The notes under the pieces were generated by a model. The model saw only the letters and a list, made by a program, of their open reading frames with translations. It searched no databases and was not told where the DNA came from. Made by a program: the position numbers and the translations under genes. Below, in pieces: positions 2,600 to 48,395 of a DNA stretch of 64,000 nucleotides. The stretch spans positions 62,056,541-62,120,540 of the forward strand of contig JAQMRL010000008.1 in the NCBI GenBank assembly GCA_035578175.1, given 5' to 3'. Source of the DNA: Catonia carolina (Eukaryota; Arthropoda; Insecta; Hemiptera; Achilidae). Positions within the stretch are counted from its first letter, which is position 1. Each line of letters begins with the position of its first letter.

Positions 2600-3400
2600 T
2601 AAAAAAAACCATTAAATGGTATTTTTATTAGACCAAAAAATTGGTGTCGTAAATTTTTTGTCTAAATCAGTCATCATGTGTAGTAGCATGGTAAATACTG
2701 GTTTCTTTTTTTAGTTGGGTGATTTGCTGATGATGATATGTAATGTATTGGATTTTTACCATTTATTTAACTTCTGTGTTCTACAATAAAATTAAATAAA
2801 TATAACCCCTCCCACCCTAATACATGGCTGGTGAGAGGAAGTATCACCATACGGTTTTTCATGCTGTAGTATAACTATTGGTATTCGAAGCTATAGTTTC
2901 AGTCGTATTGAAAAAAATGTTCCTCATTCATATATTTGACTTTTTTAGGCTTAAACACACTTGACTTATTTTATGAAGTGTAATTTATATAGGGTGATAT
3001 AAATCATGGTGTTTTCACATTGATAAGTACTTTTACGTTTATTGACTTCATAAGTCAATTATTTAACTTTTTTATTAGCGTCTTTGTTGATCATTTTCAT
3101 TTAGTGTCTGGCAGTTAAGATAAACTTAATTGTTAATTGATAAGCTGGATTAATTGCATTTAATAAAGTTAGAAAATAATTCTACAACCAACTTCATTGT
3201 AGCACAGCTGTCAATGGGGATATTTTTGAACATTTAATTTAACTTTTTGTGTAATTTCCAATGTTTTTCATTATTTAGTTAATAATAATCAATGATCATT
3301 TAACAAAAGAATATAATAAAAATAAAACAAAAAAAAATAAAAAAATTTTTTTATAGTGTGTGGGATTCGAGCTCACGGACTCTCAAACGGTATTATCAAT
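2600..3400. other. AT-rich spacer, nothing recognised
   Basis: Low-complexity AT-rich DNA without a convincing coding frame. A tRNA-like B-box motif (GGGATTCGAGCTCACG) at about 3361-3376 could be a SINE remnant read on the minus strand. I see no splice-site-bounded exon here. Confidence 0.4.
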
Positions 3401-4308
3401 AGTAAAAATCTGGTGTGAAACACTCACACAACTTCCTCTTGCCAATGCAAATAATTAACAATAAACTTAACAATTGTAATAAAACATTAGAAGTAAACAA
3501 AAAACTAACTTCAAAAAACATAACCTTAGTTTAATCATGAGTGAGACGCAAAATGAAAATCGACCTCAGTTTGACTTAAAAATACGGAAAATCACTCTTT
3601 CACGGTAAACTAGGCTCCGTAGAGAAGAATGCTTTATATAAAAGTTGTAGATCTTTTAATTTCCTATAAATTTGATCATATACACTTTTGTCGTAAAATG
3701 CATACTAAGGCCGAAATTTTAAAAAATCGATTTTTCACACGTTTTCGTGAGAAAAAACAGAAAATCGCTAATTACCGCTAAACTAAGCGTTATACAAATA
3801 AATGTTTGAAATAAAACGTGTAGGATTTTAAATTCTCTACAACTTTTATTACATACTTTTTTGCGCTAAAATGCATATTAAAGTCGCAATCTTAAAGCAA
3901 AACTTTTTTTACACAAAAACTGCCTTACCAAGAATTTCAGGAAACATGGCGCCTACCCTATCTTGTAGAGAATAAAAAATTGAGTAAATGAGGCGATTTT
4001 TAAAAAAATCGTAGGATCAGTTTTTGAGAAAATTAAAAAAAGTGAAAAATTACACGAATAAACTACTACTTCCGGTTGACCGATATTGTTGAAAATGTTC
4101 GTGTCGGGTCCGGTAGTGGTATGTAACTTAAGTTTCAAGTTCGTATGATGTTCCGTTCTTGAGATATTGTGTCCACACACAGACCAATCGCTAAAAACAT
4201 GTTTTTTGGGCTCAGGGGGTCTGAAAACGTGTAGATCCGGTGAAAACTCCATTTCGAAAAATCGACATGAAAACAATACTTTCCTTCCTATAGGCAAGAG
4301 AAAGTAAA
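3401..4308 (-). repeat. Family B repeat, full length, inverted partner
   Basis: A near full-length copy of family B on the minus strand, from its 3' terminus (AAAAATCTGGTGTGAAACAC on the plus strand) to its 5' terminus (TAGGCAAGAGAAAGT). It holds both internal ~150-bp subrepeats, each beginning near GATT..CGGCCTTA and ending near AGTTTAGCG. Its TG tract is very short (TCTGTGTGTGG on the minus strand), unlike the expanded tract in its partner at 4459-5412. A frame of about 114 codons exists here, but it is just the repeat read through and is not conserved as protein. Confidence 0.85.
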
Positions 4309-4458
4309 AATCAGCTACACACGCATGGCTACTGTTCAGATAACAATTGATGCAAAATTTTCTTTTGTAATTACAGCACTGTATGAAAATTGAATAATAT
4401 TTTGTCTTAATTTACTAATAAATTCAATTATTAGGTATTAAAATCTTTTAAATACTCA

Positions 4459-5412
4459 TTTTTACTTTCTCTTGTCTATATGAATATATAGGAAGGAAAG
4501 TATTGTTTTCATGTCGATTTTTCGAAATCGAGTTTTCACCGGATCTACACGTTTTCAGACCCCCTGAACCCAAAAAACATGTTTTTAGCGATTGGTCTGT
4601 GTGTGTGTGTGCGTGCGTGCGTGCGCGCGCGCGCGCGCGTGTGTGTGTGTGTGTACAAAATATCTCAAGAACGGAACATCATACAAACTTGAAACTTAAG
4701 TTACATACCACTACCGGACCAGACACGAAAGTTTTCATCAAAATCGGTCAACTGGAAGTAGTAGTTTATTCGTATAATTTTTCACTTTTTTGCGATTTTC
4801 TCAAAAACTGGTCCTACAATTTTTTTAAAAATCGCCTCATTTACTCAATTTTTTATTCTCTACAAGATAGGGTAGGCGCCATGTTTGCTGAAATTCTGGG
4901 TGAGGCTGTTTTTGCGTAAAAACATTTTCTTTTTAAGATTGCGGCTTTGATATGCATTTTAGCGCAAAATGTTATATAATAAAAGTTGTAGAGAATGTAA
5001 AATTCTACACCTTTTATTTCGAACATTTTTTTGTATAACGCTTAGTTTAGCGGTAATTAGCGATTTTCTTTTTTTTTCTCATAAAAACGTGTGAAAAATC
5101 GATTTTTTTAAAGATTTCGGCCTTAGAATGCATTTTACGACAAAAGTGTGTATAATAAAATTTGTAGAAAATTAAAAGATCTACAACTTTTATTGAAAGC
5201 TTTTTTTTGTACAGTGCCTAGTTTAGCGTGAAGGAGCGATTTTCCGTATTTTTAAGCCAAACTGAGGTCGATTTTAATTTTGCGTATTTCACTAATGTTT
5301 TTTGAGGTTAGTTTTTTGTTTATTTCTAATATTTTATTACTAATGTTCGGTTTATTGTTAATTATTTGCATTGGCAAGAGAAAGTTGTGTGAGTGTTTCA
5401 CACCAGATTTTT
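4459..5412 (+). repeat. Family B repeat, full length with expanded microsatellite
   Basis: The most complete plus-strand copy. It runs from TTTTTACTTTCTCTTG to CACACCAGATTTTTT. Short inverted termini can be seen: ACTTTCTCTTG at the left against CAAGAGAAAGT near the right. The alternating TG/CG tract at about 4597-4654 is expanded. Two tandem internal subrepeats start near 4936 and 5111. The copy is arranged head-to-head with the minus copy at 3401-4308, with a 150-bp spacer. The element is non-coding; it could be a non-autonomous DNA transposon, but no target-site duplication was established. Confidence 0.85.
4597..4654. repeat. (TG/CG)n microsatellite inside family B
   Basis: Alternating purine-pyrimidine run of about 58 bp: TG repeats, then GC, then TG. 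It occupies the same internal site as shorter tracts at about 1708-1752 and 9222-9257. The sequence has Z-DNA-forming potential. Confidence 0.9.
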
Positions 5413-8299: not shown

Positions 8300-9098
8300 T
8301 GGGACTTAATTTCAAGCTCCCTGAACCCAAAAAACATGTTTTTAGTGATTGGTGTAAGTGAACAAAACATCTTAAGAATGTAATAGAGTATAAAGTTGAA
8401 ACTTGAACTTAAAAGTAGTTACCACAATGAAACCAGACTAACATTTCCTTCAAAATTGGTCCACCGGAAGATGTTTCACTTGTTTTTTTCACTTGTTTTT
8501 TGTACATGGTTTATTTGTGTGATATTTTACTTTTTTGCAATTTTCCCATAAACAGTTCCTACAATTTTTTTTTAAATCACCTCATTTACTACATTTTGTG
8601 CTCTACAAGATAGGGTAAGCGCCATGTCTGCTGAAATTCTTCAGGGGCATGTGCTCTGATAGGAAAAACAGTTTTTCTAAGACTGTGGCCTTATTATGCA
8701 TTTTAGGGGAAAAGTGTACAAAATCAAAGTTTTTCTACAACGCTTAGTTTAGCATCAATTAATTTTTTTTTCATCTAAATCAGTAAAAAATTAATTTTTT
8801 AAGATTGTGGCTGTAGTATGTTTATGTCAAAAGTGTATGTAATCAAAGTTATAGAAAATTAAAAACCTACAACTTTTATTTATAGCATTTTTCTCTGCAG
8901 AGCTTAGTTTAGCGTCAGTTAGTGTTTCCCCTTGATTTTAAGTTGAACAGAGGATAATTTTCCTTTAGCAGCATTCATTTTTGATTAAAATTAGTTTTTG
9001 TTTTTTGTACTATATTGTTTACTAATGATTAAAGATAAGTTATATTGATCATTATCTACATTGGCAAGAGACAGTTCATGTGATTGTTTCACAACAGA
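8300..9098 (+). repeat. Family B repeat, divergent copy lacking its 5' end
   Basis: Starts inside the family at CCCTGAACCCAAAAAAC and runs to the normal 3' end (GGCAAGAGACAGTT, then TTTCACAACAGATTTTT). It is more diverged than the copies at 3.4-5.4 kb. The next copy starts immediately after it, so the two are in direct tandem order. Confidence 0.8.
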
Positions 9099-9100
9099 TT

Positions 9101-9610
9101 TTTACTTTTGCTTGCCTATATGAATAAAAAGGAAGGAAAGTATTGTTTTCATGTCGAATTTTCATTGGATCTACATGTTTTCAGACCCCCTGAACCCAAA
9201 AAACTTGTTTTTAGCGATTGGTCTGTGTGTGTGCGCGCGCGCGTGCGTGTGTGTGTGAAAAGAATATCTCAAGAACAGAACATCTTACGAACTTGAAACT
9301 TAAGTTAGATATTAGTAGAGGACCCGACACGAACATTTTCATCAAAATCGGTCAACCAGAAGTAGTAGTTTATTCGTGTCATTTTTCACTTTTTTGCGAG
9401 TTTCTCAAAAACGGCTCCTACAATTTTTTTTAAAAATTGCCTTATTTACTAAATTTTCTATGCTCTACATGATAGGGTAGGTGCCATATCTGTTGTAATT
9501 CTTGGGGAGGTTGTTTTCTTGTAAAAAAATTGTTTTTTTTAAGATTGTGACTCTAATATGCATTTTTTTGCAAAAATGTATTCAATTAAAATATAGAGAA
9601 TTTAGAATTG
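9101..9610 (+). repeat. Family B repeat, 5' half, in tandem with the previous copy
   Basis: Begins TTTTACTTTTGCTTGCCTAT, carries a TG/CG tract at about 9222-9257, and fades out near 9610 within the first internal subrepeat. Confidence 0.8.
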
Positions 9611-11011
9611 TAGTAAAAAGCACCAATTTTGTAGTGGAAAAACGAAGCCTCCACCATTTTGTAGTATAAAATGAGGACACAACACGGCGCCTCTACCATA
9701 TTATGTAAGAAATACATTGGCAGCTGCAAAGTTCAGTAGCGTAGACAGCGTTTTCCCTTCACCGAAATTCGGAGTGGACGAACACCATTGTAGTTGCCAC
9801 CGGGCAACCCCAAGGGCGGTCCACATCAAAACCATAAGACGAAGAGAAAAAAAGGCAGTCCAAACTACAAAACATTGAAACATTGATTTTCGGGGGCTCC
9901 ACCATCCAATTTTAGAAACCAACCAGGAACTGAATTGGATTCAGGGATTAATTGGCAACCCAGCGATGTGAATAACGTAGCTCAATTGATGGTAAAAACT
10001 CGCTTTTAGTACTGCGAAGGTTTGGTTAAAGAACCACACAGGTCTAGACGCAATGACATTTGACACAGAAAAAAATAATGCAAAAAATTAATGAGTAGCT
10101 AAATTAATTTATTAATGAATAACTAAAAACTAAATAAAGTAAATAAAATTATGATTTTTAAGTAAAACGGTTAATTCATTTAAAATTTGAAAAAAATAAT
10201 TAGTTAAATAACAATACAGTTTAAAATAAAATAAAAATTGGAATAAATTAATTTTAACAAAACTTGATTTAACAATAGAAAATACTTAATATGAATGTAA
10301 TAAATTAATAGGAATATTTAAGAAAAACTATTTTTAAAGTCCTTGGACTGAAACGGGGAAAACAAATCTCTTGGGAAGAGTTTAATAAATGATTTAAGGT
10401 GAAGAAAAATAAATATAGTAATGTATTTATTTGTCGGGGAAAAAAACTAAATAAAATTAAGACATTAAAAAAATGAATTGTGAGATGAAATTTAGTAAAA
10501 GAATTACTTAGAAAAATTTAAGTAACTCAGTGGTCGTTGAACAAGAGTTTAAAAGAAAATTTTGTCATATTTAAGATTTAAAAATTTAAAAAGAAGAAAA
10601 ATATACTGAATTTAATAAAGTTTTTTTTTTTCTTAAAATTAATTAAACATTTTAAAGAGATTTATTTAGTCTATAAATAGGATATTTAAAACACCATAAT
10701 AATATTAAGAAACATTATGAATTTAAATTTAAAAAAAAATAGATTTAAAAAAAAATTGTTTAAGTTAAAACCTGAAAAATTATTAAACATGGTACTTAAA
10801 TTTAAATTTAGGTAATATTCCCATATTGGGAAAGAAAAATAATTTACCTGTAAAATTTGATGTTATCGGTTCGACATCCTGTCCAAGACAAAGCGTAAAA
10901 ACTCAACGCACACAAACGTAAAAAAAGGTCATTCCCCTAACGTTCACGAATAGAAGCGTTCGAGGCGGCGAAAAATGCCGATACATCGGAAATACCAAGA
11001 ATTTAAAGGAG
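9611..11011. other. Unassigned sequence, left part of an AT-rich block
   Basis: Bases 9640-10060 are of mixed composition. From 10060 the DNA is strongly A-rich on the plus strand, with very few C residues. I find no coding frame or splice structure of note. It appears to be the left part of the block whose right part resumes after 17588. Confidence 0.35.
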
Positions 11012-12673
11012 GAAAATTATATGGAAAATAAAACGACGGTAACAGTGGGAGTGAGAGAGAGAATCAATCGTGTAAGATAGAAAGAGAGAGAGATACAAAT
11101 TACACGTGTGAGTAACTGAACAATAAAGAAGTAACGACAAAAATGAAATCGGACACCGGACGTAAGCCTAAGAATTAAAAACGTAAATTTAAATACGGAA
11201 TAAAAATCTAGTGAACTAAAACCAACTAGAAATAAATGAATAAAATAATTAGATTTAAAGAAGGAAAAAATACATAACCCTTAAAATAAAATAAATCCGG
11301 CACAAAAATCAGAAAAACGGGATTGTAAATGAATTGAGAAGATTTTGGAGACAAAATCTTAGAAATTCATTACACTCCCCCCCCTTAGGAAGAGAAAAAA
11401 AAAGAAAAACTAGATCTGAAGAAATTAAAGGTAGTGGCGTTGATGACAAGAAGAAAAATATCTCGTTTTCTGCAGAAATTGGTCAAGCAATCTTTACATG
11501 CAATGAACATTGATAATATAGCATATAATTCAATTGATATAATTAATTGTTAGTTTAAAATTTGATTTAAATTACTCTATCATATAGTATTAATTAATTT
11601 GAATCATAATCATATATCATTAATTTTATTTTGTAAGTATAACTGGTGTGTTTGTATATATTTTATTTTTAAAGAATTGAATCAAGTCTTAATTTATTAG
11701 AATAGATTGTAATTACTTGATTATTTGTTAGTTTGATTGCAAAAATTACTAAAAAATTTTCCTGAACAATGTGAATTTGAAATTAGTGTATGAATTTTAA
11801 AATGTATGTGTTATTATACCTAAACATATATACATAAACATAATAGTAAAATAAATTTGATTAACAATAGCACCCCAAGGATTTGGTGTTAGGGTAGGTG
11901 TAAGAGAATTTTAAGGGCAGGAATTAATAAAATGTATGGAATAGTTGGGATGGAAAAATGTATGTTAGAGGAATTATCGGTAATTGGTAAAAAGAAAAAT
12001 TAGGAATAATATCAATTGGACGATGACTAATTTGTATTAGGAAAGCTATGGGAAAGAAAGGAATTGTTCTGAACATGTGACCTCTTGTAGATGGACATCA
12101 AAATGGCTGAATTGTAGTTGAAGATGGAAAATTGTTCAAGTTCTTGAAGTTTCTCTAGTTGGAAGGTTGTATTATCGATCCAGTTTGTAATGTTGGAAGT
12201 TTATATTCTTGAACGGGATATGTGATGAGTCCGTAAGCAGAAAGTGTCGGTATGTTCTCATAACAGCTGTATGTTGTTTATTTTAAATGTTAATACATTT
12301 GGCTTTGATGTACAGGAACAACCAATGTATTGTAAATTTGAAGTCGAAGTGGTAATTCTTGAAGATCTGGTAATAGAATTTCTTTAGGTAAAATCTTTGT
12401 TGAAATGTGTTATGAAAAATAGCGTTCTTGAGTTTGTTGTAACGACGTTTTTAAGTTGATACAAAAATGTGATAAATAAAATACAAGAAATTCTTCATAA
12501 TGGAAAAGATTGTGAGTTTTTCTGCGTTTCATCAGCTTGAAGTCGGAAGACGATATCTTTAAATTCATGATGTTTTTGTTAGTTGAAAAAAATCTTGAGG
12601 ATTGTGAACTGTTGCATTCAGATGCTGTATTGTAGACTGGTACGATACGCTGGAAGTCCATTGGTCCTCTTGT
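11012..12673 (+). repeat. 1662-bp direct repeat, left copy
   Basis: Matches 15926-17587 at a constant offset of 4914 bp over its full length, with no length change noticed by eye. Only two base differences were noticed (12290 and 12298 against 17204 and 17212). The copies flank a 3252-bp non-LTR retrotransposon. Left flank is ATTTAAAGGAG, and the right end of the copy is GGTCCTCTTGT. The repeat itself is AT-rich and non-coding apart from an 83-codon frame on the minus strand that is present in both copies and not recognised. Confidence 0.95.
11337..11400 (-). other. Hairpin and polypurine-tract-like motif (left copy)
   Basis: AAGATTTTGGAGACAAAATC and the following TT form a perfect stem-loop with 8-bp arms. 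Next to it, the minus strand reads AAGGGGGGGGAG and then TGTAATG, which resembles the polypurine tract and start of a 3' LTR. The duplicated copy repeats this near 16251-16314. No matching second LTR was found, so this remains only a hint that the host block is an old LTR element. Confidence 0.3.
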
Positions 12674-12872
12674 CCCCTCTTACCTCTTACCCCTCCTAGG
12701 GAGTACAGGACCTTGTAGATGGTGGAGGGGCTTGCGTGCTCCCAAGACCCGGAGAGCTATGCCGGCGGTAGTGTAACTACCAGCAGGGCCTCCCAAGCCG
12801 GACAGGTCAAAGGGTAGGAGCCAGACGAAGAAGTACTCCAAAAACGACGTCGTTGGGCCAATCACCCACACG

Positions 12873-15800
12873 TTGAAAAAGCGGATTCAAAGTCACATAA
12901 ATAGCCTCGGACAGGACAGGAATTTTCGGAATAAAAGACTGGACAAACCTAATTTACGATTTGGAAATTGGAATATACGCACTTTGACTGGAAAGGAAAA
13001 GGAAATAGTAGAGGAGATGAAAAGGTATAAAATGAGTGTTCTGGGAGTTAGTGAGATTCGGAAAAGAGGATGTGGAGAGAGACAATTGGATGATGGATAT
13101 GTGCTCAGATATTCAGGAACGACTGATGCAGGACGGTTAAAAGGAGGAGTTGGTGTCATACTGGACGAGAACACTAATAAATTAGTAAGTGGATGGGAAG
13201 CCAGGAGTCCCAGGATTATAAGAATTGATCTAGAACTGTCAGAAAATATTTCCATTATTCAGGTCTATGGCCCAACTGAGGATGCAGATAATAGAGAAAA
13301 GGATTGTTTTTGGGAAGATCTAGGTAGAGCAATGGCAGAGGTAGAGACAGGTCGAAAGGCATTTATAATGGGTGATTTTAATGGAAGAATAGGAAATGAT
13401 GAAACAAGATGGCATGGTTGTATGGGAAAACATGCCGGGGAGTCAGTGCGGAATGATAATGGAACACGTCTGTTGGAGTTCTGTATTGGTCACCAGCTGC
13501 TGATTGGAAATACGTGGTTCATCCATAAAACCATACACAAAGTCACTTTTGTGGCTGAAGGCAGAGATACTCAAAGTATTATTGACTACTTTCTGTACCC
13601 ATCTACTATAAGATATGCAGTAAAGGATGTGAAGGTTATAAGAGGTGCAGAGATCGATACAGATCACAAACTTCTTGTTGCAGACACCAGTTTTCAGAGA
13701 AAAACCACAATGAAGCAGAAAGTCTATCAAAGGATTAAAGTAGAGGAATTGGAAAATATTGATAAACAGAATGCATTTCAGGCTGAAGTGGAGAGAGAAT
13801 TGACTCTAGCTGAAGCTCAAATGACAGATGAAGCTCTGTCCACAAATATTGAGGTTCAGTGGAAAAACATAAAGGAAACCTTATTAAAAGCAGCAAATAA
13901 GGTATGTGGAAAAAGAAAAGTGGGTCAATTCAAGAGGAGAACAAAATGGTGGACAGAAGAAGTGAAACAGAAAGTCAAAGACAAAAAGAATGCATATAGA
14001 GGATACATTAGATCGGGAAGAAATGAAGATTGGCGGAAATATATTGAGTGCAGAAACCAAGCAAAAAAAATAGTGAAGGAGTCGAAGGTGAAGGCTTGGG
14101 AGGAATTTGGAAATGAAATCGATAGAAATTTCAAAAATAATGTAAAAAAGTTCTGGACAATTTGCAAAAGTATACGTGGAAAGTTTGGAAAACAAGTGAA
14201 CTCAATAAAGAATAAAGAAGGGAAACTGATGACGGCTACGCAAGATGTACTTGAAACCTGGAAAAAGTTTTTCGAAGATAAGTTCAAAGAGGATAGGTTT
14301 GAGGAAGCTATCACTGTAGATGTGGTCAATGATGCAAATGTGGACTATCAAATGAATTCTGATATAACAAAGGAAGAGGTTAGGGATGCAATTCGAAAAA
14401 TGAAGGTAGGGAAAGCAGCAGGAATAGATGAAATACATGCTGAATACCTGAAGAAAGGAGGTGAATGCATAGTGAATAGCCTAACAAAATTATTGCAGGA
14501 AGTCTGGAAACAGGAAAAGATTCCAGAAGAATGGGAACAAAATATCATTATCCCACTGTATAAAAAAGGTAACTCAACTGATTGTGAAAACTATCGCGCA
14601 GTGTGTTTGTCATCGGTTGTACTGAAAATTTATACCCGAATTCTAGAGAAAAGACTTCGTGCGGTGGTGGAGGACCAGTTTGAGGAGGAACAATGTGCCT
14701 TCAGACCAGGCAGACAAACTCAAGACCATATTTTCTCGCTGAGATCAATCTGTTCGAAGTCTATAGAAAAGGGAAAACGGGTTTATCTGGAATTCTTGGA
14801 CCTCAAAGCAGCTTTCGATACGGTCCCAAAATGTGTTGTATGGGAGACGCTGGTTGCCAAAAACGTATCACCAAAATTACAGCGAGCAATAAAAAGTGTT
14901 TTTAATAATGTGACTGCAGTGATCAGAACGTGTGGAAGGATTTCAAGACCGTTACAAATGGAAAAAGGAATTAAGCAGGGAGACAGTTTGAGTCCACTAC
15001 TTTTTGTGATGATAATGGACGAAATTAATAAAATCTGCAAAAGAAGAACTGACAGAATGATGGTGGGACGTTGGAACTTGAGGCCCATATTTGCTCAAGC
15101 TTTGTTATTTGCAGATGACATAGTTCTTATTGCTGACTCTGAAAGAAAGCTTCAAACTGCAGTAATTGAATGGAATGAAGAGATTAAAAGGAAAGGCATG
15201 ACACTGAATATCAATAAGAGTAAAGTGATGGTGGTTAATGGCTTGGAAGGTGAAGGAATTAGGATAGATGTGGAAGGACAGGTAATGGAACAGGTGAGGT
15301 CATATGAGTATCTGGGTACAGTAGTAAGGGACGATGGGAAAATAGATGATGAACTAAGAAATAGAATCTCTAAAGCTAGTCGGGCCTTCTATGCAACCAG
15401 AAATTGTATTTTTGGAAAAAAAGAAGTGGGTGCCACAGTAAAAAACAGGGTCTATAAAAGTATTATTGAACCAATAGTCCTGTATGGTGCAGAAAGCTGG
15501 CCCTTGAAGCAACAACAAATGAGCAGAATCAGGGCAGTTGCAATGAAGTGCCATAGAAGGACAGCTGGGAAGACATTGAGAGATAGAGTAAGAAGTGAAA
15601 GAATCAGGGAGGAAATAGGAATGAAGGATGTGAAGGAAGTAATAGATAGAAAACAATTGGGATGGTGGGGTCACATACAAAGAATGGATGACGAAAGGAA
15701 AGCCAAGCAGTATGCAAACGTGATCGTTGGCGGGAGTAGGAAAAGAGGGCGTCCACGATACTCATATGATGAGCACATACGAAGATTGGGAGAGGAAAGA

Positions 15801-15884
15801 GGCATGGCCCTAGGGCAAATGAGACGATTGGCGGCGGATAGAGTACAATGGAGGAAGTTGTCCGAGACTACCCCGACGCTGTAA
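12873..15884 (+). CDS. Endonuclease-reverse transcriptase polyprotein of the non-LTR element
   Basis: A multifunctional retrotransposon protein that nicks target DNA and copies its RNA at the nick. Residues about 28-275 form an APE/exonuclease III-like domain: NWNIRTL (33-39), catalytic Glu in SEIRKRG (E61), GDFN (D168, N170), and TDH (D264, H265). Residues about 495-830 form the reverse transcriptase. Block A is LDLKAAFD (D643), followed by KQGDSLSPLLF (701-711) and the FADD box (746-749). The C-terminal region has YGAESW, a GHIQRM-like motif (933-938) and RGRPR (958-962). A basic linker lies between the domains. The frame is open from 12777 with no stop until 15884. Codon 12873 is TTG, and the first in-frame ATG lies after the first endonuclease motif, so initiation is unclear. 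It may be non-AUG. Confidence 0.93.
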   Translation: MKKRIQSHINSLGQDRNFRNKRLDKPNLRFGNWNIRTLTGKEKEIVEEMKRYKMSVLGVSEIRKRGCGERQLDDGYVLRYSGTTDAGRLKGGVGVILDENTNKLVSGWEARSPRIIRIDLELSENISIIQVYGPTEDADNREKDCFWEDLGRAMAEVETGRKAFIMGDFNGRIGNDETRWHGCMGKHAGESVRNDNGTRLLEFCIGHQLLIGNTWFIHKTIHKVTFVAEGRDTQSIIDYFLYPSTIRYAVKDVKVIRGAEIDTDHKLLVADTSFQRKTTMKQKVYQRIKVEELENIDKQNAFQAEVERELTLAEAQMTDEALSTNIEVQWKNIKETLLKAANKVCGKRKVGQFKRRTKWWTEEVKQKVKDKKNAYRGYIRSGRNEDWRKYIECRNQAKKIVKESKVKAWEEFGNEIDRNFKNNVKKFWTICKSIRGKFGKQVNSIKNKEGKLMTATQDVLETWKKFFEDKFKEDRFEEAITVDVVNDANVDYQMNSDITKEEVRDAIRKMKVGKAAGIDEIHAEYLKKGGECIVNSLTKLLQEVWKQEKIPEEWEQNIIIPLYKKGNSTDCENYRAVCLSSVVLKIYTRILEKRLRAVVEDQFEEEQCAFRPGRQTQDHIFSLRSICSKSIEKGKRVYLEFLDLKAAFDTVPKCVVWETLVAKNVSPKLQRAIKSVFNNVTAVIRTCGRISRPLQMEKGIKQGDSLSPLLFVMIMDEINKICKRRTDRMMVGRWNLRPIFAQALLFADDIVLIADSERKLQTAVIEWNEEIKRKGMTLNINKSKVMVVNGLEGEGIRIDVEGQVMEQVRSYEYLGTVVRDDGKIDDELRNRISKASRAFYATRNCIFGKKEVGATVKNRVYKSIIEPIVLYGAESWPLKQQQMSRIRAVAMKCHRRTAGKTLRDRVRSERIREEIGMKDVKEVIDRKQLGWWGHIQRMDDERKAKQYANVIVGGSRKRGRPRYSYDEHIRRLGEERGMALGQMRRLAADRVQWRKLSETTPTL

Positions 15885-15902
15885 GGCACATGGGGAGAGA
15901 GA

Positions 15903-15925
15903 AAGAAGAAGAAGAAGAAGAAGAA
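15903..15925 (+). repeat. (GAA)n 3' tail
   Basis: GAA trinucleotide repeats follow the stop codon by about 20 bp and end the retrotransposon. The last GAA merges with GAAAA at the start of the right target copy, as expected for target-primed reverse transcription with short homology. Confidence 0.9.
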
Positions 15926-17587
15926 GAAAATTATATGGAAAATAAAACGACGGTAACAGTGGGAGTGAGAGAGAGAATCAATCGTGTAAGATAGAAAGAG
16001 AGAGAGATACAAATTACACGTGTGAGTAACTGAACAATAAAGAAGTAACGACAAAAATGAAATCGGACACCGGACGTAAGCCTAAGAATTAAAAACGTAA
16101 ATTTAAATACGGAATAAAAATCTAGTGAACTAAAACCAACTAGAAATAAATGAATAAAATAATTAGATTTAAAGAAGGAAAAAATACATAACCCTTAAAA
16201 TAAAATAAATCCGGCACAAAAATCAGAAAAACGGGATTGTAAATGAATTGAGAAGATTTTGGAGACAAAATCTTAGAAATTCATTACACTCCCCCCCCTT
16301 AGGAAGAGAAAAAAAAAGAAAAACTAGATCTGAAGAAATTAAAGGTAGTGGCGTTGATGACAAGAAGAAAAATATCTCGTTTTCTGCAGAAATTGGTCAA
16401 GCAATCTTTACATGCAATGAACATTGATAATATAGCATATAATTCAATTGATATAATTAATTGTTAGTTTAAAATTTGATTTAAATTACTCTATCATATA
16501 GTATTAATTAATTTGAATCATAATCATATATCATTAATTTTATTTTGTAAGTATAACTGGTGTGTTTGTATATATTTTATTTTTAAAGAATTGAATCAAG
16601 TCTTAATTTATTAGAATAGATTGTAATTACTTGATTATTTGTTAGTTTGATTGCAAAAATTACTAAAAAATTTTCCTGAACAATGTGAATTTGAAATTAG
16701 TGTATGAATTTTAAAATGTATGTGTTATTATACCTAAACATATATACATAAACATAATAGTAAAATAAATTTGATTAACAATAGCACCCCAAGGATTTGG
16801 TGTTAGGGTAGGTGTAAGAGAATTTTAAGGGCAGGAATTAATAAAATGTATGGAATAGTTGGGATGGAAAAATGTATGTTAGAGGAATTATCGGTAATTG
16901 GTAAAAAGAAAAATTAGGAATAATATCAATTGGACGATGACTAATTTGTATTAGGAAAGCTATGGGAAAGAAAGGAATTGTTCTGAACATGTGACCTCTT
17001 GTAGATGGACATCAAAATGGCTGAATTGTAGTTGAAGATGGAAAATTGTTCAAGTTCTTGAAGTTTCTCTAGTTGGAAGGTTGTATTATCGATCCAGTTT
17101 GTAATGTTGGAAGTTTATATTCTTGAACGGGATATGTGATGAGTCCGTAAGCAGAAAGTGTCGGTATGTTCTCATAACAGCTGTATGTTGTTTATTTTAA
17201 ATGCTAATACAATTGGCTTTGATGTACAGGAACAACCAATGTATTGTAAATTTGAAGTCGAAGTGGTAATTCTTGAAGATCTGGTAATAGAATTTCTTTA
17301 GGTAAAATCTTTGTTGAAATGTGTTATGAAAAATAGCGTTCTTGAGTTTGTTGTAACGACGTTTTTAAGTTGATACAAAAATGTGATAAATAAAATACAA
17401 GAAATTCTTCATAATGGAAAAGATTGTGAGTTTTTCTGCGTTTCATCAGCTTGAAGTCGGAAGACGATATCTTTAAATTCATGATGTTTTTGTTAGTTGA
17501 AAAAAATCTTGAGGATTGTGAACTGTTGCATTCAGATGCTGTATTGTAGACTGGTACGATACGCTGGAAGTCCATTGGTCCTCTTGT
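15926..17587 (+). repeat. 1662-bp direct repeat, right copy
   Basis: The second copy of 11012-12673, starting GAAAATTATATGG and ending GGTCCTCTTGT. It continues into unique DNA (TGAAAAGACAGC) instead of the retrotransposon. The near-identity of the two copies suggests the duplication is very young, or that it is an assembly effect. Confidence 0.95.
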
Positions 17588-20570
17588 TGAAAAGACAGCT
17601 GATGGTTGAGTAAAGTGGGTGAAAAAATTCTTAGGAAAAATATACAGGAATACTTGGGTATGACCTAGGAATTGATTAAATTAGGGATATGGATGCTTTA
17701 GAAATAATTGTGTCAAGAATAGGTATGGCATGTATGTTATGAAGTACATTATTGGAAGTTGGATAAACAGCATGAGGAAGCATAAGGGAAATTTTGATGA
17801 GTATGATAATTTTTGGAAGGAAAACTCGTGTGAATAGGTCGTATGAGAATACTAATGGATGGAGTGTACTATTTTACAAAAAGAAAATTTGTCTTTTGAA
17901 ATGGAAATTAAAATAACCTAATTAATGTTTTTAGAAACACATTGTAACCAGATAAAAGTATTTTGTATAGTACTATATTTATCTGTAAAGATTTATTAAC
18001 TTTAATAATAGTTTGTTTTAAATTGTGCAAATTATTTTATGGATCAAATGAAAGTTTTATAAGTTAATTAATTTTGTAATTTCATCAACATAGTTGAAGT
18101 TAAACGAGTATGGCAGTATTATAAAAATGTTATAAGTTGGTATTTACTATTAGTACAAAAGAATAGGTCACTTGAGCATCTACCATATGAGCAGAGAATG
18201 AGATATAATTGTAAAATAGCATTTATGAGTTAAAAACATGGACGGAAGAGTAAAATATAAGATTTAGCTTGATATGAATATAATATAAAAATGTTAATTG
18301 GTGTTTTAAATATACTCTGTAACTTAATTCTAACTTAAATACTAGCTTATGAGAATATAATGTAATAAATTCGACGTGTCGCAGTGATCGTTGTTGTATA
18401 GTTGAAAGATTACGAAAAAGTTTTTTTTTTTTTTTTTTTTTTTAATTGTAATATTTTTAAGTTAAAAGTCCAAAGGAAAATTATTTTTCTAATATATTTA
18501 TTGAACGTTAAAAGTTCCACTTGTAATAATTGTTTTTCCATGACAACGCGTAAAACAAAATTTGTTGTATGACAAAAGTAACTGTTGTAATAAATGTTTA
18601 TTTACGAGAAATCTTCTTATTAACACTAATTTTTTTTGTGATTGTAAAAGTTCTTTTGCGATCAATGTTTATATGAGAAAATGATTGTTTAATTTAAAAA
18701 AAATATTATGTAATAGTCTTTAAAATAGTTGTTTTCGTGTGATAGGTCTTTGTTACACTGATTATTTTCACTGTAATAAATATTGTTTCAATAAATTTTC
18801 GCGAACATTTAACTGTATTATGTAAAAAGAAGTTTGGTCATTGATTTTGTAAAATGTAAAAAGAAGTTTGGTCATTGATTTTGTAAAAATGTATTCTGGT
18901 ACGTAGGTAAACCTGGTAACTGTAGATTGATGATCTCTGACGGATGATCATAGCTGACAGGAACTTAGTAGGATGCTGGTAGTTGAAAAACAAGATTGGT
19001 CACTGCGTTTGTCGGCTCTCTTAATGACTAATGGTGTATGACTCACTTGATCTGCGGTGATTCTGGGAGTACTCAGGAAAAGTCTCCATCTGTTGACAAG
19101 TTAAAAGCAAATTAAGCTTACAAAAATAATATATTTGTTAATATGTGTTCCTAACAAGCTTTGTTGTAGTAAAAAATCATCGTAGAGGGAAATAATTATT
19201 AAATACATGAATAAATAATTAATGATTATAAATAAATATATGTATAATGACAAGTGATTATAAGTTTATAAGATTATAAGTATATAAGATGATAAGTCGT
19301 GAGGAGTACATTTACATACTAGTTTAGAAAAATTATCCCATTGTAATGCGCAAAACAAAAAATTATCTGTAGACTGTGAACTATTTTGTAATAAAAATCT
19401 ACTATGTTCTCCTTAAACAGGAAGCATCAATCAATAGTCTAACTAATCTATTAATATTTATTTCATCGCTTAAAAACTAAAACTCTTCTTGAGTAAATAC
19501 TGTCTTACAAACTAAAGTTCTTGCTGAATAAATATATCGTCTTAAAGTCTAAAGTAGAAAATGAAATCAACTGAAAACGTAGTACTGACTGAATAGCACA
19601 TACATTACTACACCTAGCCAGAACCTAGGCATAGAGGGCACAAGGCTCCTTTCCAGCGATGCCAGAAACCATGACTTCCTTGTACTTGAAGTTTGAGATG
19701 AGAAAATATAAAAACAGTAATATACTTATAACTAAAATGCTTGTAGTGTAACTTGTAACTCATAAAATCATAATTCCTTAACCTAATATTCAATAATAAT
19801 CATTCATATAATATAATATCAATTATTTAACGGGTGACTGCTGAAGATTAAAAACATTGCGCTGAAGGTGATGCACTAATGTAACTATGTCTAGCCAGAT
19901 CCTAGACACAGAGGGCACAAGGTTCCTTTCTGGCGGATGCCAGAAACCGTGACTTCCTTGTACTTGAGATTCATAAATAATAAAATAATAAAATCATCCA
20001 TCGTTGGAGTGGCTTAAAAACTAAAGTGAAGGCTGAAAATAATCTTATAACTAACTTAAATCTAATTATGTTGTAGTAAAATCTGAGAACAGCAATGTAA
20101 AATGAATGTATTTAGAAGTAGAAGGAATGGAATGGGATAAACTCACGACAAATGCTAAAAACAAATTAATAGGGAAAGTAAGGGCATGGATATAAGGAAA
20201 AAATAAAATAAACAAAATGAGCATACAAGGTGTTTACAAAGGTAGGAAACCTAATAAGAAGCAACATGTCTTCAAACAAGTCGTACCTCATTCTAATTAT
20301 TGAAAAAAAATCTAGGGATAGCAAAGAAAATCCTAACAGGACATTGTATGTGGTGTGAAAATTTGGAAAATACCTGAAAATTTAGAAACGAGTTTCATGA
20401 ATCAACGGAAAGTTAACTCCGGACAAAAATGGGCAGAAAACAGAGCAAAGAAATCCAAAAACAAGAAGAACGGACACACGTCGGGCAAAAATTTGGAGAA
20501 ACAACAAAAAAAAGATAGAAGGAAAAATGCACTACGATTGCATTTTTAGGTTTTATTTTTTTCTACGATT
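17588..20570. other. AT-rich unassigned block with small tandem repeats
   Basis: A strongly AT-rich stretch with no recognised exon. A tract of about 23 T residues lies near 18420. A ~34-bp unit (GTAAAAAGAAGTTTGGTCAT...) occurs twice in tandem at about 18820-18888. A ~80-bp unit containing GAGGGCACAAGG and GACTTCCTTGTACTTGA occurs twice, near 19612-19690 and 19888-19968. None resembles a known protein-coding feature. It probably continues the block left of the non-LTR element. Confidence 0.4.
19612..19968 (+). repeat. Two diverged copies of an ~80-bp unit
   Basis: Both copies read CTAGCCAGA-CCTAG, GAGGGCACAAGG, GCCAGAAACC and GACTTCCTTGTACTTGA in the same order. They are about 270 bp apart and differ at several positions. 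Role unknown. Confidence 0.75.
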
Positions 20571-21072: not shown

Positions 21073-24000
21073 GTACAATTCAATCTGTATTAATAATAAT
21101 GTAAACTTAAGGGCAGTCAAAAAAAAATTTTTTGTATCATGACCAGAGGTTTAAAAGCAGTTGTAGTTGAAAAGACCTGGCTTAAAATTTCTTTTTAACA
21201 AGGTTTTATTTAATTGTATATGAGTTGTGGCTATTAAATAATGAGACTGATGCTGGTGTGGATCAAGGAGGCATGCTCCAACTGCCATTAATCAACAGCT
21301 GTTTAGTGTGAACCTTTCTCTTGTATGCAGCTAGTCTCACTTCTGTAAACAACACCGTTTAGTCAGAGCCTACGTTCGCGTTATTATTGCTTTTTGTTTT
21401 GCCGGATAAAATGGTTAGTGTATCAGTAGAGCAACGAATTATTGTGAAATTTCACTTTAAACTTGAAAAAACTGCTACTGAAACTTATAATTTACTGAAA
21501 GAAGTGTAAGGCAGTGAATGTTTATCGTGGGCACGTGTTTTTGAATAGTTTAAGCATTTTAAAGATAGCAGAGAAGACGTTGAAGAAGATTCACAGCCAG
21601 GTCGCTTTTCAACATCTAAAACAGATAAAAATGTCGAAAAAGTCAGTAATTTGATTCGGTCTGACCGTCGATTAAGTATTTGCGCAATTGGTGAAACTTT
21701 AGTTATTGATAAAAATGTCTACAACAAATTTTACATGACAATTTTATCATGCGAAAAGTTTGTGCTAAAATGGTGCCTAAAATTCTAACGTTTGAACAAG
21801 AAGCTCGCAAAAATTTTTGTACTGACACTTTGTACACGATTGAAAATGACTCAAAGTTTTTAGAAATGATAACAACATGTGATGAAACGTGGTTTTTTAC
21901 TTATGATCTGGAAATGAAGTGCCAATCCATGCGCTGGAAGAGGCGAACTTCACCGAGAGCCAAAAAGCTCGAATGAGCAAGTCAAAATTTAAAGTGATGA
22001 TTGTTTTTGTTGATATCCATGGGATTGTGTACCTTCACTGGGTTCCTGAAGGTCAAACAATTAATCAATATTACTACCTTGAGTTACTTTCCAAACTACA
22101 TCAAAGAGTAAGGAAATAGCGCCCCGAAATGTGGAAGGACAAATCATGGGTTCTCCACTATGACAATGCGCCAGCTCATTCTGCGTTATCTGTCTAGAGG
22201 TTCTTAGCCAAGTACAGCATCTCAGTGTTATAACATCCACTTTATTCACCAGATCTTGCACCATGTGACTTCTACCTGTTCCCTATGGTGAAATCTGCAT
22301 TAAAAGGGACAAGATTTAAGTCTGTGGAAGCTGTAAAAGAGAAAGCAGCACATCCTGAAGGAGCTGACAGAAGATGACTTCCAGCACGGTTTCCAACAAT
22401 GCAAAATTCACATGGAGCGTTGTAGGGATAGAGAATGAGTGAATATTGAAGGTGACAATAAGTGATTATGTATAAAATTAAAATTAATTTTTTTACAAAG
22501 TCAGTCTTGTTATTAATAGCCACACCTCGTATTGCTCGACCAAAAATTTGAATAAATTAATACAAGTTTTTTTGTTTCTTCCTTATTTATTAGACATTAA
22601 TTTGCTGTAGGAATAAATCCAATGGTTATAAAGTAAAAAAATTGAAAAAGGAAATTGGGAAAAAAAATTACAGATTTCTTATAACTACCACCAAATAGCT
22701 TGTTCTTTTTTATATAAACCGTGAAAATTAGATAATGATATTATTAAAAAAGAGTGTTTTAGGTGTAGCTTTGAAAAAAATTGTCTGTAAACCTATTTTG
22801 TTTGTTTTGCAATACTTGTTAACTAGGTCAAACAAATTCAACATCTTTTATTTATTTTAGTAGTTGCGCGATTTTATTAGCATTATGGATTTGTAATCAC
22901 AATTTATTAATGTTTGAGTTTAGATATTTTATGTTTCCTTTTTCTCAAATTATTTTATTCATTTTTCAAAAAGAAGCATAGTAATTTAGTTTCCTTATGT
23001 ATGATTTTTTTACTTTCTCTTGCCTATATGAGTACGTAGGAAGGAAAGTATTATTTTCATGTTGATTTTTCAAATCGAGTTTTTACAGGATCTACACGTT
23101 TTCAGACCCCCTGAACCCAAAAAACAAGTTTTTAGTGATGTCAGGTAAGTCAGGTACCACAAGAGGACCCATCACGTACATTTTCATCAAAATCGGTCAA
23201 CCGGAAGTAGTTTATTCGTTTAATTTCTCACTTTTTTGCAATTTTCTCAAAAATGGCTACTACAATTTTTTTTTTCGCCTCATTTACTAAATTTTTTATG
23301 CTCTACAAGATAGGGTAGGCACCATGTCTGCTGAAATTCTTGGAGGCTGTTTTCTCTTTAATATGCATTTTAGCGGAAAAATGCATATATAATAAAAATT
23401 GCAGAGAATTTAAAATCTTACCACTTTTATTTTAAACATTTTTTTGTATAACGCTTAGTTTAGCAATTTTCTGTTTTTTTCACGAAAATGTGTAAAAAAA
23501 AATAATCAACTTTTTTAAGATTTCCGCCTTAGTATGCATTTTACGACAAAAGTGTATATAATCAAATTTGTAGGGAATTAAAAGATCTATTATTAAGTAA
23601 AATTTTATAAAATAAAAAGAACTTCTATTTGACGCATTTTTCTCTACAGTCTAGTTTAGCGTGAAAGAGTGATTTTCCATATTTTTAAGCCAAACAGATT
23701 GATTTTCATTTTGCATCTTTCACTCATAATTAAAATTAGGTTATGTTTATTGAGGTTAGTTTTTTGTTTATTTCTAATGTTTTATTATTAATGTTAGGTA
23801 CAGATATCAGATGACTTGATATCCCATAGCGGAGCGAGTGAGAAGGAAATATGTGGCATAACTACGCATGCGCCCAAAGGTCTTTACCATAATAATCCAA
23901 ATCTGAATACGTACTACAGTCATTATCTTGCTTGTTAGTTTACTGCATGGATGAACGCTTGCTCATAACAATGAGTAAAATTATACAATATTATTGGAAT

Positions 24001-27000
24001 GGCGCGTCTGGCTTGTTCGAGTGAGAGCGTTATGCTTTCTCTCACTCCCACGGCTAGGGGACTTTAGTTCATCTGAATACTGTATATTGTTCATTATTGG
24101 GCATTCAGAAGAGAAAGTTTTGTCAGTGTTTCACACCAATTTTTTTCTATTTTTTTTTAGATTGTGCCTGAGGCATTATATAATCAGTTTTTGGATAAAT
24201 CTCTTAATGTCATTGGCAGCAGTTTACAAAATACAGTGCATTGTAAATCAGTAGATTGTAATATGTTCTACATATGTGATGATGATATAAATACATTCCA
24301 TTGTGAACTATGTAAAGCAACTAACTGTGTACCATGCAAGGTAAGACGATTTACGTTATAATATTTATTATTTATATAACTTTTATAATTATTATTATTT
24401 TATAATTTTTTATTATTATTTTTAATTATTTTATATTATTATTTTATAACTCTGATTAGTGTCTTTTACACCTCTACCTCTTCTGTTCTTAAATGATTCA
24501 GTCATTTAATTGGCTGACCATGTGATAAGAAACAGAACTATTATTTTGCAGGGCTAAAATAATAGTTCTGTTTCTTATCACATGGTCAGCCAATTAAATG
24601 ACTGAATCATTTAAGAACAGAAGAGGTAAAGGTGTAAAAGACACTAATCAGAGTTATGTCATCTGAAAGTAATGAATTTCATTATACAGCCAGACCCTGT
24701 GGTGAATGAAGTGAAGGTGTCATTTGCAGAGTGGAAAATATGTGCTTTTCAGAGGGCCCGGCATGCTGATAAGTGTACTTTTCCACTCATTGAGGAAGGC
24801 AATGGTAAACCACCTCACTCCTCGTTTTACTTAGTAAAACCTCTACAGGTTCAAACCAGCCTTTTGGCTGATGACCTAAACAACAACAACATTTATTATT
24901 TAATTACCAGCAGACCTGGACTCACTTTGCTTTGTCTACTAAAAATCTTGTACCGACAATAAAACCGTAACTAAATAATAATAGACCTCCTCTCAGCTTC
25001 GATTGCTATATAAAACTGAAAAACAATGAAAATTGCTGTTTAATTAATATATTACCGTGCAATGGCATTTAAAGCAGTAAAAATTTCTTTAAAATAATGG
25101 AATTGAAGATACTGTTCAATCTTTTATAGGGCAGTAATGCAGGGAAAATATATATATGTTATAAAATATTAAATTTTGCTGTACAGGGACTTGAATAAGG
25201 TATTTCTAGTGCCAGAACAGAAAGATTTTTTTTATGTTAAGTCCTGGTAAGTATGTTTATTAAAACAACTTGTAGTACTATATAACAAAAATATATATAG
25301 AATAACTGATCTTAACTATATATTAGCATGAATGCTTCCTTTCCCGTAAGAAACTTGAATTTTCTAAACACTGTACTAAAGTAACGACAAAACAACACGG
25401 TATCATACGCTGGTATGAATCCTTACCACATACGTGCAACTGAGGAAGCATATGGTTGCTGCACGCAAATTTTCAATATGTGGATAGCCTACTAACCAGA
25501 GAACATCTATAGCACCATAAAATGTCAATAAGGTTCAACTGCGAAGCTTATTCTTAAATAAACTCGACCGTATTGTCAGTGGTAAGTGCACTTACCAAAG
25601 ACCTATAAAAGGTTAAATATTAACCCTTTCCGCTCGACTGTCAGATCTGATCTGACATGATAGTATTACCATTCCACTCGTATGTCGGACCAAAAATAAT
25701 ATTCAGATTATTTTGCGTGTTTTTATATTAGGTTTTAGGTATCAATTTCTAGTTATAGTTTATTTTATTTTATTTTTTACAACAGCAGTGTATGTTTTGC
25801 AGGTTATATTTTAAAAGTTTTTAGGTGAGAAAAAGCATTTTTTATGTATCATTATTAACATTAAAGTAATAACAAACATAAAAAGTATTATATGCTCTTA
25901 AAACTAATAACAACACTTTATGCGTACAATTAATACAACAGGGTACCAACAAATCATAAAATAATTACAAGGGGAGGGGAATCACAGTGCAAACATTATA
26001 CAAGTGGAAAGGGTTAACTGAATTTACTGCTTTAAATAATATATTGGCATGAAGGAGCAGAGCGATACCTTTCTATGCACTTACTAAACCGTATTGAGTT
26101 GCTGTACTGGACTGAAGCCAGTGTGCTACAGGAATAGCGCCACATACAGTAGTGGTGGGAGAACGCAACAGCTTAATGGCGGGCAGTGTCTGTTTGTTCA
26201 GTTTTATAATAAAAAAATTTTTTAGCTTGAAAAGTATGCGCTGGCATACGGTTTGAAACTACATTAATTACAGTTTGAAACTGAAATTCTTTAGTATTCT
26301 GAGTCTAGGAATTCACTTGTGAAGGTTATAAATTTGATAACTATAACAGTTATGGAGATACCTAATTTTTTTTTGATTTTCTGGTAGGATTTACTGAAAA
26401 AAACAAATATTTGGGAATTTTTAGCAAATCTGCATGACAATAGCTTTCAAACCACACTGGAACCATTAAAATTGGGCCAGTACAACTCCATAAATGGTTC
26501 TCTCAACAAAACATTTTACCATAGATAAGTTTTCTGTTTGTGCAAGTTAACATTTTAAGTGCCACCCTAGAAAGAATTGACAATCTTGATGGGCAAACAT
26601 ATTTTGTTTCAATAATTTGGTTAAATTATACATAAAAATAATATTTTTATTCTTAATAGATAATATATTTTGTAAATTCACTGCAGAATAATTAAAGATG
26701 CAGCCGCACTTTTACCGAGTAGAAAATAAAATTTCACAGCAATGTGTTTTTCACTTAAACTTGCCATCATAAAAAACGAAACAAGAACAAAACAGCGCTA
26801 GCAAAAACAATCACTGCAGATGAATATTGAACTCGCAATGAGTTCCGCTATACACGTCTGTGCGGCAGAAATGTGTACTGCACCAGCACTGCCCACGGCA
26901 GTGCTATTCCGGTTACTTTTGGGTACACCCTCATAGAAAATTAAAAACCCTACAACTCTTATTTCAAGCATTTTTCTCTACAGAGCCTAGTTAAAAGGCA

Positions 27001-40339: not shown

Positions 40340-40722
40340 CAGGATTATTACTTGCACTTGATCTGCTAATTCCAGGGCTACAAAAAATCGTTATGTTTCT
40401 TATCAGATTGTCAGCCAATTACATGACTTATGCAGTTAAGAACAGAAGAGGTAGAGGTGTAAAAGACTCTAGTCAGAGTTTCTCTTCTGAGAGTAATTAA
40501 TTTTGTTATACAGCCAGACCCTGTGATGAATGTAGTGAAGGTGTCATTTGTAGAGTGGAAAGTACGTGCTTTTCGGAGGGCCCGGCATGCTCTGACAAGC
40601 ATACTTTACTACTCAGTGAGGAAGGCAATAGTAAACTACCTCACTGCTTGTTTTACTTAGTGACGCCTCTACAAGTTCAAACCAGCCTTTCGGCTAATGA
40701 CCTAAACAACAACAATTATTAT
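40340..40722 (+). repeat. Family A repeat, copy A3
   Basis: From GCACTTGATCTGCTAATTCC to AATGACCTAAACAACAACAA. It contains CAGCCAGACCCTGTGA and GAGGGCCCGGCATGCTC. Diverged copy. Confidence 0.88.
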
Positions 40723-41149
40723 TTTTATTTACAAAACATAGACAGACCTTTGTTCAAAAATGTTAAAGATGCTGTGACTACTGGCCCTGCATCAATACAG
40801 TTGGACAAGGTCATTGACATATTTCAATAAAAGTCTGTAAGGGTTTTCATTGGCTTCAGTATTGAGGTGTGTTTGTGTGGGCTGTTGTACGGAGCATCGG
40901 GCATTAATCCAGTATTTTTATTATGTTGTGTCATTGCTTAATGAGTCTCTTGTTTTAGTGAAAAGCAATTTTTTTTTTGTTTCAAGCTGTGTTCAAAAAG
41001 TAAATTAATTTTTTTAAGTCTCAAGCTGCAAAATATCTACCTGTACTTAATAAAAAAATAAATACTAAAAAATTGTGTAAGTTTAGCCTTAGTGGCTAGG
41101 TTTCTTTAAGAGTAAATGAATCGATACTTCATTAAAAGCATAAAGGGAA

Positions 41150-41475: not shown

Positions 41476-41936
41476 AACATGTTTTGAATCAAAATTTATT
41501 ATGAATTCTAAAAATTAAATCAAAGTTTTAAAAAATATCTCTTTTACCAGTGTGTAATAATTCAGTTTTTAGTCTCCTGTAAAATGACCGTTATATTATT
41601 TTACAATTAAGCCTATGGATATGGTTATATTATTTAATTTTCTAATGGTTGTTTTGTCCAAGTTTTTTTGGGATTTAAGGTATACGTGATCCCAATAATC
41701 TCAGATAAGTAAGTTTATACTGTTTATTTTCTACTTAGCAATATACTTGATTCATTAAAAAAAAAAACATATTGTGATAGAATTCTCATGTCCAGAATAT
41801 TATCATGTAATAATGATTTCTAGCGCTTGTTATAAAATTTTGTTAATGTTTGCGAAATCTGTTAATTTTAATAGTTGAATAGTTTATGGAAATTAAATTG
41901 TTGATCTATTTGTTATTTATATTATAAAAATATTTA

Positions 41937-42557
41937 ATTTTTCACTGACCGGTTACAGCTACTATATCACTTAGTTTTTTTTACCTTTTATTTGTATAAT
42001 CTTACTTTCTATCTGTATCGGTAAATCCACCATCTTTAAAGTACATAAAATTGAAACTAAATTTTTAAAAATGTATTAAAATATTTGGTAGATGTTGTAT
42101 CTTTAGTCATTTATATAAAAATGTTTAATTATTCAAATTTAATTTCATTCATGTACAGAATTTTTTCTGTACAAATAACAGCAGCAGTCAATATTATATC
42201 ATCATTTTTAAATTAAACAAATTCATTAAAAATGTCTTCAAACTATCATTAAACAACGAAGGCAAGACATTTTAAATGAACTGGTTTAATTTAATAATTA
42301 TGAAATTATATTTACTGCTGCTTCTATCTGCACAGAATATCAATGTAGTTAAATTTGAATATTAAATAGTTTTGTAAAGAATGATTGACGATATTACATC
42401 TTCTAAAAATTGTAATAAATGTTTAAAAAGTTTAGTTTCAATTTTATCTACTGTGTTGAAGGTGGATTTACCAAAACATGTCAGCAGAAAATAGGATTAT
42501 ATAAACAAAACTGCAAAAAACAAGTGAAACAGCAGTTGTAACAGGTCAGTGAAAAAT
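41937..42557. mobile_element. Large diverged inverted-repeat element
   Basis: Outer ends AATTTTTCACTGACC (left) and GGTCAGTGAAAAATT (right) are exact inverted repeats. Further matches run inward: GGTAAATCCACC and GGTGGATTTACC, TGAAACTAAATTTTT and AAAAAGTTTAGTTTCA, and AAAAATGT against matching partners. The arms extend nearly to a centre near 42.25 kb, so this looks like a foldback transposon of about 620 bp. No coding frame. Confidence 0.8.
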
Positions 42558-42926
42558 TAAATATTTTTACAATAGGATTGAATTTAGGCTGCAGAATGCA
42601 TGTTAGATTTATTTAATAATGAAGATATTATTATATATAGTTATAGTTCTGGTAGTGTAGTAGTGTATCCCTAAAGTTCTTAGTTTAATCTTACTTCTGA
42701 CTTAAAAACAAATTTTTTGCTTAAAATAATTGTGTTAAAGTAGGTATTTTTTAATAATGTTTGCATCTTTTAAAGTTAGTGATTTTTTAATGTTTTTATG
42801 TAGAATTATTAGATATTATATATTTTATTATTATTATTATATTATATACTATATTATATTTTTTCAAACATCCTGTGTAGGATTATAAACAGCCGTTTTA
42901 TTTAAAATTGAAATATATGTTTTTCT

Positions 42927-43176: not shown

Positions 43177-43387
43177 AAAAAATATATATTTCAACTATAT
43201 TATTTATATGTAATTTTTTTTAATTAAAATTGATATGCTCAAATGTATTAAGTTTCTTGATGAGGTGTAAAAATTTATATGGATGACTTCCAAAAACCAT
43301 ATTTGGTATGATAAAAATTAAAAATTGTATAAGTACATAAATCAAAATTATGTAATTTTGATTTATCCATCTCTCCAAATATAATTT

Positions 43388-47867: not shown

Positions 47868-48255
47868 TGCCCATAACAGACAGATAGTGTTAAATTATTT
47901 GCACTCGATCTGCTAGTTCCAGGGCTACAAAAAATAGTTCTGTTTCTTAGAACACATGGTCAGCCAATTATTTGACTGAAACATTTAAGAACAGAAGAGG
48001 TAGAGGTGTAAAATACACTATTTAGGTTATTTCCTTTGAGAGTAATGAATTTCATTATACAGCCAGACCCTGTGGTGAATGAAGTGAAGGTGTCATTTGC
48101 AGGGTAGTAAGTAGATGCTTTTCAGATGGCCTGGTATGCTGATTAGGCATACTTTTCCATTCAGTGAGGAAGGTAAAGGTAAACTACGTTTTACTTAGTA
48201 ATGCCTCTAGTGTCAAACCAGCCTTTTGGCTGATGACCTAAGCAACAACATATTT
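47868..48255 (+). repeat. Family A repeat, copy A4
   Basis: From GCCCATAACAGACAG to GACCTAAGCAACAACATAT. The AGCAACAAC variant at its end is shared with copy A5 but not with other copies, supporting a common origin by segmental duplication. Confidence 0.9.
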
Positions 48256-48395
48256 TTTTTAAGAAATACATTTTACCTACAAACTAAAACTATGGTTTCA
48301 TATAACAAATATTCAGTTGTTATTCTCACGTTGTATTCATTGGCTTTTAATGTGTATGGTTTTGTGAGAAGTAAAATGCTTTAACCCTTATACAT
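48255..48395 (+). repeat. Spacer duplicated at 53640-53775
   Basis: TTTTACCTACAAACTAAAAC, CAAATATTCAGTTGTTATTC and GTAAAATGCTTTAA recur in the same order at 53640-53775. It forms part of the tandem unit that carries the LITAF terminal exon. Confidence 0.85.

Follow-up and report, generated by a model that had tools for sequence, protein, structure and literature searches.

How does a single retrotransposon come to lie exactly between two near-identical, kilobase-long copies of non-coding DNA? The question is raised by positions 11012-17587 of a 64-kb window (the whole stretch of DNA analysed here), where a segment that we call X is followed by a non-LTR element and then by X again, both X copies being in direct orientation and non-coding (Table 1).

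Table 1. Features of the X - element - X locus, in window coordinates
Feature	Positions	Strand	Remarks
Left 1,662-bp X copy, non-coding	11012..12673	+	99.88% identical to 15926-17587; junctions
Inferred first-strand nick region	11002..11014	+	TTT at -10 to -8 before GAAAATT
Non-LTR retrotransposon, 3,252 bp, between X copies	12674..15925	+	single copy in the 64-kb window
5' region ahead of the listed frame	12674..12872	+	no Rfam match, ordinary folding
1,003-codon frame, APE (residues 32-250) and reverse transcriptase (564-816)	12873..15884	+	Pfam match
(GAA)n tail, one GAA unit common with the right X start	15903..15925	+	
Right 1,662-bp X copy	15926..17587	+	C at 17204, A at 17212 vs left copy

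Two direct copies of X with a retrotransposon between them

BLAST and a base-by-base comparison gave the same coordinates for this arrangement, which the first-pass annotation had described as a 3,252-bp APE-type element exactly between two 1,662-bp direct copies. The copies keep a constant offset of 4,914 bp, and the two mismatches that had been noticed proved to be the only differences between them (12290 T vs 17204 C and 12298 T vs 17212 A); a 1.66-kb match at 99.88% identity is no chance event. These mismatches are spaced by 8 bp and, as two random mismatches would fall so close with a probability of about 0.01, they may represent one mutational event. Each falls in one arm of a 6-4-6 hairpin, which pairs perfectly in the left copy but not in the right one; such a placement could reflect a templated double change. 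The 64-kb window contains no N bases, and blastn at E 0.001 identified no further copies of X or of the element within it.

The left flank joins X as AATTTAAAGGAG/GAAAATT and the left X joins the element as CCTCTTGT/CCCCTCTT; at the other end, the tail joins the right X as (GAA)n/GAAAATT and the right X joins the right flank as CCTCTTGT/TGAAAAG. Past the left copy, the identity breaks off with the first base of the element, and past the right copy with the first flanking base. The duplication and the element share their boundaries at both ends, as is expected of a target-site duplication made by one insertion event. The earlier description of a left copy ending at the 5' end of the element, and of a GAA tail running into the right copy, agrees with these junctions, with one GAA unit, common to tail and target, leaving the left end of X uncertain by that unit.

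The coincidence of the ends bears on a history in which X was first duplicated in tandem and the element landed later, by chance, exactly at the X-X junction. Tandem duplications of about 1.66 kb are common in general; however, an unrelated insertion would fall within 4 nt of a pre-existing junction with odds of about 0.003, even given that it landed somewhere in the 3.3 kb, and it would require a separate short duplication of its own, which was not seen. This order of events, which the first-pass annotation had listed among its alternatives, is thus very improbable.

The arrangement is also superficially LTR-like, and X could be regarded as the terminal repeat of the element itself, a non-LTR polymerase gene within LTR-like repeats, rather than as host DNA. 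LTR retrotransposons typically have terminal repeats of the type TG...CA with a 4-6 bp duplication outside. X has neither the TG start nor the CA end, and no short duplication in register was found outside the two copies, the longest common word in 30 nt of either flank being 5 nt long and out of register. Moreover, the element has its own GAA tail ahead of the right X, and the GC content of X (29%) resembles that of the flanking 2 kb on the left (30%) and on the right (27%), compared with 41% in the element. LTR-like terminal repeats were rejected on the ends of X and the absence of an outside duplication, and we give this reading hardly any weight.

Coding frame and relatives of the element

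The single frame of the element carries the domains PF03372 (APE) and PF00078 (reverse transcriptase) above the cut-off, with PF14529 below it, and the top PDB matches of its protein are LINE-1 ORF2 protein chains. With an APE and a LINE-type reverse transcriptase predicted in one frame, the element is classified as an APE-type non-LTR retrotransposon (LINE). The first-pass annotation had called this 1,003-codon frame intact. Its length stands, but the word is too strong, because the frame opens at TTG, is open only from 12777 (TAA at 12774) and has its first in-frame ATG at 13017, inside the stretch matched by APE and with no ATG ahead of that stretch. In their listed form, the relatives P0001 and P0002 also start near this region, at an ATG, so that the element may have either a non-AUG start or a damaged one.

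Rfam yielded nothing for 10500-18200 at E values of up to 5, and nothing at the gathering score in the 64-kb window, so no known ribozyme family was detected in the 5' region. A ribozyme at the 5' end of the element was rejected on this result and on an ordinary folding energy (z -0.33, 12660-12890).

Elements of the RTE clade are not known to carry an RNase H domain, and Pfam at E 0.001 found no RNase H match in the element protein. The clade is further described as having a 3' UTR that is very short and consists mostly of trinucleotide repeats (PMC1852546), and the element, a short APE-RT element of 3,252 bp, has 18 nt between its stop (15884) and the GAA tail (15903). The RTE-clade element SR3 is likewise about 3.2 kb long with APE and reverse transcriptase, but its reported duplications are of 10-12 bp vs 1,662 bp here (PMC1291365). 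The predicted anatomy is therefore as expected of the RTE clade; we do not file the element there, because the tree described below holds no known named RTE reference.

A protein search, which scored only the 7,995 candidates with most words in common, returned 89 proteins at E <= 0.001, the best five being 44-47% identical; alignment A1 comprises 10 of the 89. For the reverse transcriptase tree (40 rows), 39 of the 89 matches were picked by rank or species name, leaving out P0022, a chimeric gene prediction. The window protein grouped with the five proteins P0001-P0005 (100/100), in a set of rows of which none is known to be a named RTE reference; the long branches of Oesophagostomum and Tanacetum meet at the root.

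No relatives of the element were confirmed in viral contigs, in bacterial and archaeal genome contigs or in phages. A plasmid search matched 53 records, none over more than 80% of the query and all below 60% identity, and among the best 20 of the 53 most bear an annotation as group II intron reverse transcriptase; all these collections may lack records of the window's own genome. One of the 20, a record named as an Alicyclobacillus fastidiosus plasmid, NZ_CP104070.1 (L001), carries at 3001-4419 a LINE-like reverse transcriptase with 29% identity over 48% of the query. It has 2 listed features in 39.8 kb (its gene table is incomplete) and is perhaps DNA of eukaryotic origin filed under a bacterium.

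The 3' junction and the putative nick

At the 3' junction the target begins with GAA, the unit of the tail, a trinucleotide that starts at 2.2% of window positions. At this one locus the shared GAA is what pairing between a nicked TTC end and the tail would leave, and this microhomology between tail and target agrees with target-primed reverse transcription.

Ahead of the duplicated target, a TTT run occupies positions -10 to -8. For Bov-B and other RTE-type LINEs a Tn-TA signature has been reported, with a T run about ten bases ahead of the duplicated target and TA at the cut (PMC13295347). Our locus lacks the TA: G and G stand at the nick, or nearby A's if the shared GAA is counted with the tail. 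Since TTT is found at exactly -10 to -8 in 81 of the 1,436 GAA sites of this AT-rich window (5.6%), and anywhere in -14 to -8 in 16%, and since TA is absent, the run supports a nick of this type weakly.

The junction also bears on the assembly error that the first-pass annotation had considered, in which haplotypes with and without the element (inserted with an ordinary short duplication) would have been joined and X shown twice. The low divergence of X would fit allelic sequence in a low-diversity species, but a false join would have had to hit the boundary of the element exactly, without N and with few shared bases there, and the microhomology at the 3' junction is as expected of a real insertion. 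We consider such an artefact improbable.

An insertion-coupled duplication as the favoured history

The reading that we prefer, at a probability of about 0.55, is that one LINE insertion by target-primed reverse transcription duplicated 1,662 bp of its target, on the same molecule or jointly with the sister chromatid; the weights given here to the competing readings are our judgement and were not computed. This one-step history is favoured because the ends of the duplication are the ends of the element, a position that chance landing would seldom produce (see above). The endonuclease would have nicked the bottom strand at about 11012, and the GAA tail of the RNA would have annealed to the exposed TTC end and then been copied. 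The 3' end of the cDNA would next have joined top-strand DNA ending 1,662 nt downstream, where the far joining point may have been a second, distant nick on the same molecule or a broken end of the sister chromatid. Gap filling or ligation would then have left the target present twice.

As the usual duplications of APE LINEs are far shorter, this single 1,662-bp case is a rarity and no evidence of a new mechanism. For C. elegans Rte-1 a direct repeat of about 200 bp has reportedly been noted. The first-pass annotation had given a few to tens of bases as usual for non-LTR elements. Published values are 10-20 bp for APE LINEs (PMC6895275) and a median of 21 bp in canonical human mobile-element insertions (PMC12350158). 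HzRTE-1, of the RTE type, is described with duplications of 7 and 10 bp. Among non-LTR elements, R9 of bdelloid rotifers likewise stands out for the length of its target duplication, but this is of 126 bp (cited in PMC6895275), about 13 times shorter than X, and R9 is, by the title of its description, rDNA-specific.

The closest likeness is found in human L1 insertions in NER-deficient cells, where direct duplications of at least 1 kb hold an APE LINE at their junction, in most cases with a tail on its 3' side (PMC5223499). In that report the duplications range from 5 bp to 5.3 kb with a median of 1,495 bp (single table rows give 5,896 and 6,765 bp), 18 of the 47 that are over 100 bp exceed 1 kb, and one clone of the complemented cells has a 1,520-bp duplication (PMC5223499). 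The L1 case differs in concerning an engineered element with a poly(A) tail in cell culture, whereas the window holds a natural locus, another LINE and a GAA tail. In tumours, a 22.6-Mb tandem duplication that carries an L1 at its junction, explained by sister-chromatid bridging, resembles our locus in the single LINE between two direct copies and has an endonuclease motif at the 3' junction; it differs in being somatic and of megabase scale (PMC7058536). A kilobase duplication around a LINE is unusual in size, but comparable events are already on record. The long target-site duplication put forward in the first-pass annotation thus remains live as the most likely reading and falls within known LINE behaviour (L1, over 1 kb), although the annotation overlooked unequal exchange, the classical rival.

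Unequal crossing-over as an alternative

In this alternative, two insertions of one family in the same orientation, each with an ordinary short duplication, would have occupied the two ends of X on homologues, and unequal crossing-over between them would have given the recombinant X-element-X and, as the reciprocal product, an element without X. The product has a structure identical to the one observed, and the window is repeat-rich. LTR elements duplicate only a few bases of their target. An arrangement of the size of Drosophila px1, where the LTR element DM412 lies between the copies of a 1.5-kb duplication (PMC13322080), therefore needs no long target duplication. The tandem duplication at Drosophila Bar, with a single roo between the copies, is ascribed to exchange between two roo copies, an ascription that concerns Bar and not px1 (PMC13322080). 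Both cases share with our locus one transposable element between direct copies of host DNA, but they involve LTR elements, and the Bar copies are substantially diverged vs 2 differences in 1,662 bp here (PMC13322080).

A GAA opens the final 21 bp of X, which would permit a second insertion there with a 21-bp duplication; however, GAA is present in 42% of the 27-nt stretches of the window, and the 14 nt preceding this GAA (at -21) hold no T run. For the exchange, two members of one family must also have inserted independently, 1.66 kb apart, with matching orientation and on different haplotypes, and the exchange would draw the X copies from two haplotypes. The probability of at most 2 differences between these would be 0.011 at a pairwise diversity of 0.5% and 0.000009 at 1%, rising to 0.35 at 0.2% and 0.77 at 0.1%. 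The near-identity of the copies thus leans towards the one-step insertion only if the host is polymorphic. We regard unequal exchange as a strong rival, though a less probable one than the one-step insertion.

Other repeats in the window

Large palindromes were observed at 3404-5412, 41920-42574 and 54121-54881, with opposite-strand self-matches of 82%, 76% and 93% identity, respectively; on their structure they are perhaps fold-back or inverted-repeat transposons. Sequences related to the first of them occur at 8310-9612, 23007-23799 and 43384-44290, with others among the best 60 matches by length. Copies of a dispersed repeat, about 200-400 bp long and 79-96% identical to one another, occur at 2102-2494, 24546-24901, 40347-40727, 47868-48261, 54921-55320 and 51556-51759. 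On the minus strand, 52187-53393 holds two adjacent frames, neither of which (each taken without its first codon) has a Pfam match at E 0.001; we take them, by eye and perhaps wrongly, to be a mariner-type transposase split in two.

Implications for LINE insertion

The locus bears on how LINEs choose the attachment point of the second strand. If unequal exchange made this locus, it would be a small and clean duplication of the Bar type produced by a non-LTR element. It is quite unlikely, though conceivable, that the second-strand step of this lineage is relaxed in the germline of its host, with kilobase target duplications arising regularly as a steady source of small segmental duplications. 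If the favoured one-step insertion is true, the locus would be a natural and nearly unmutated kilobase duplication, suggesting that the outcome seen for L1 in repair-deficient cells also occurs in a germline, and such insertions would seed segmental duplications.
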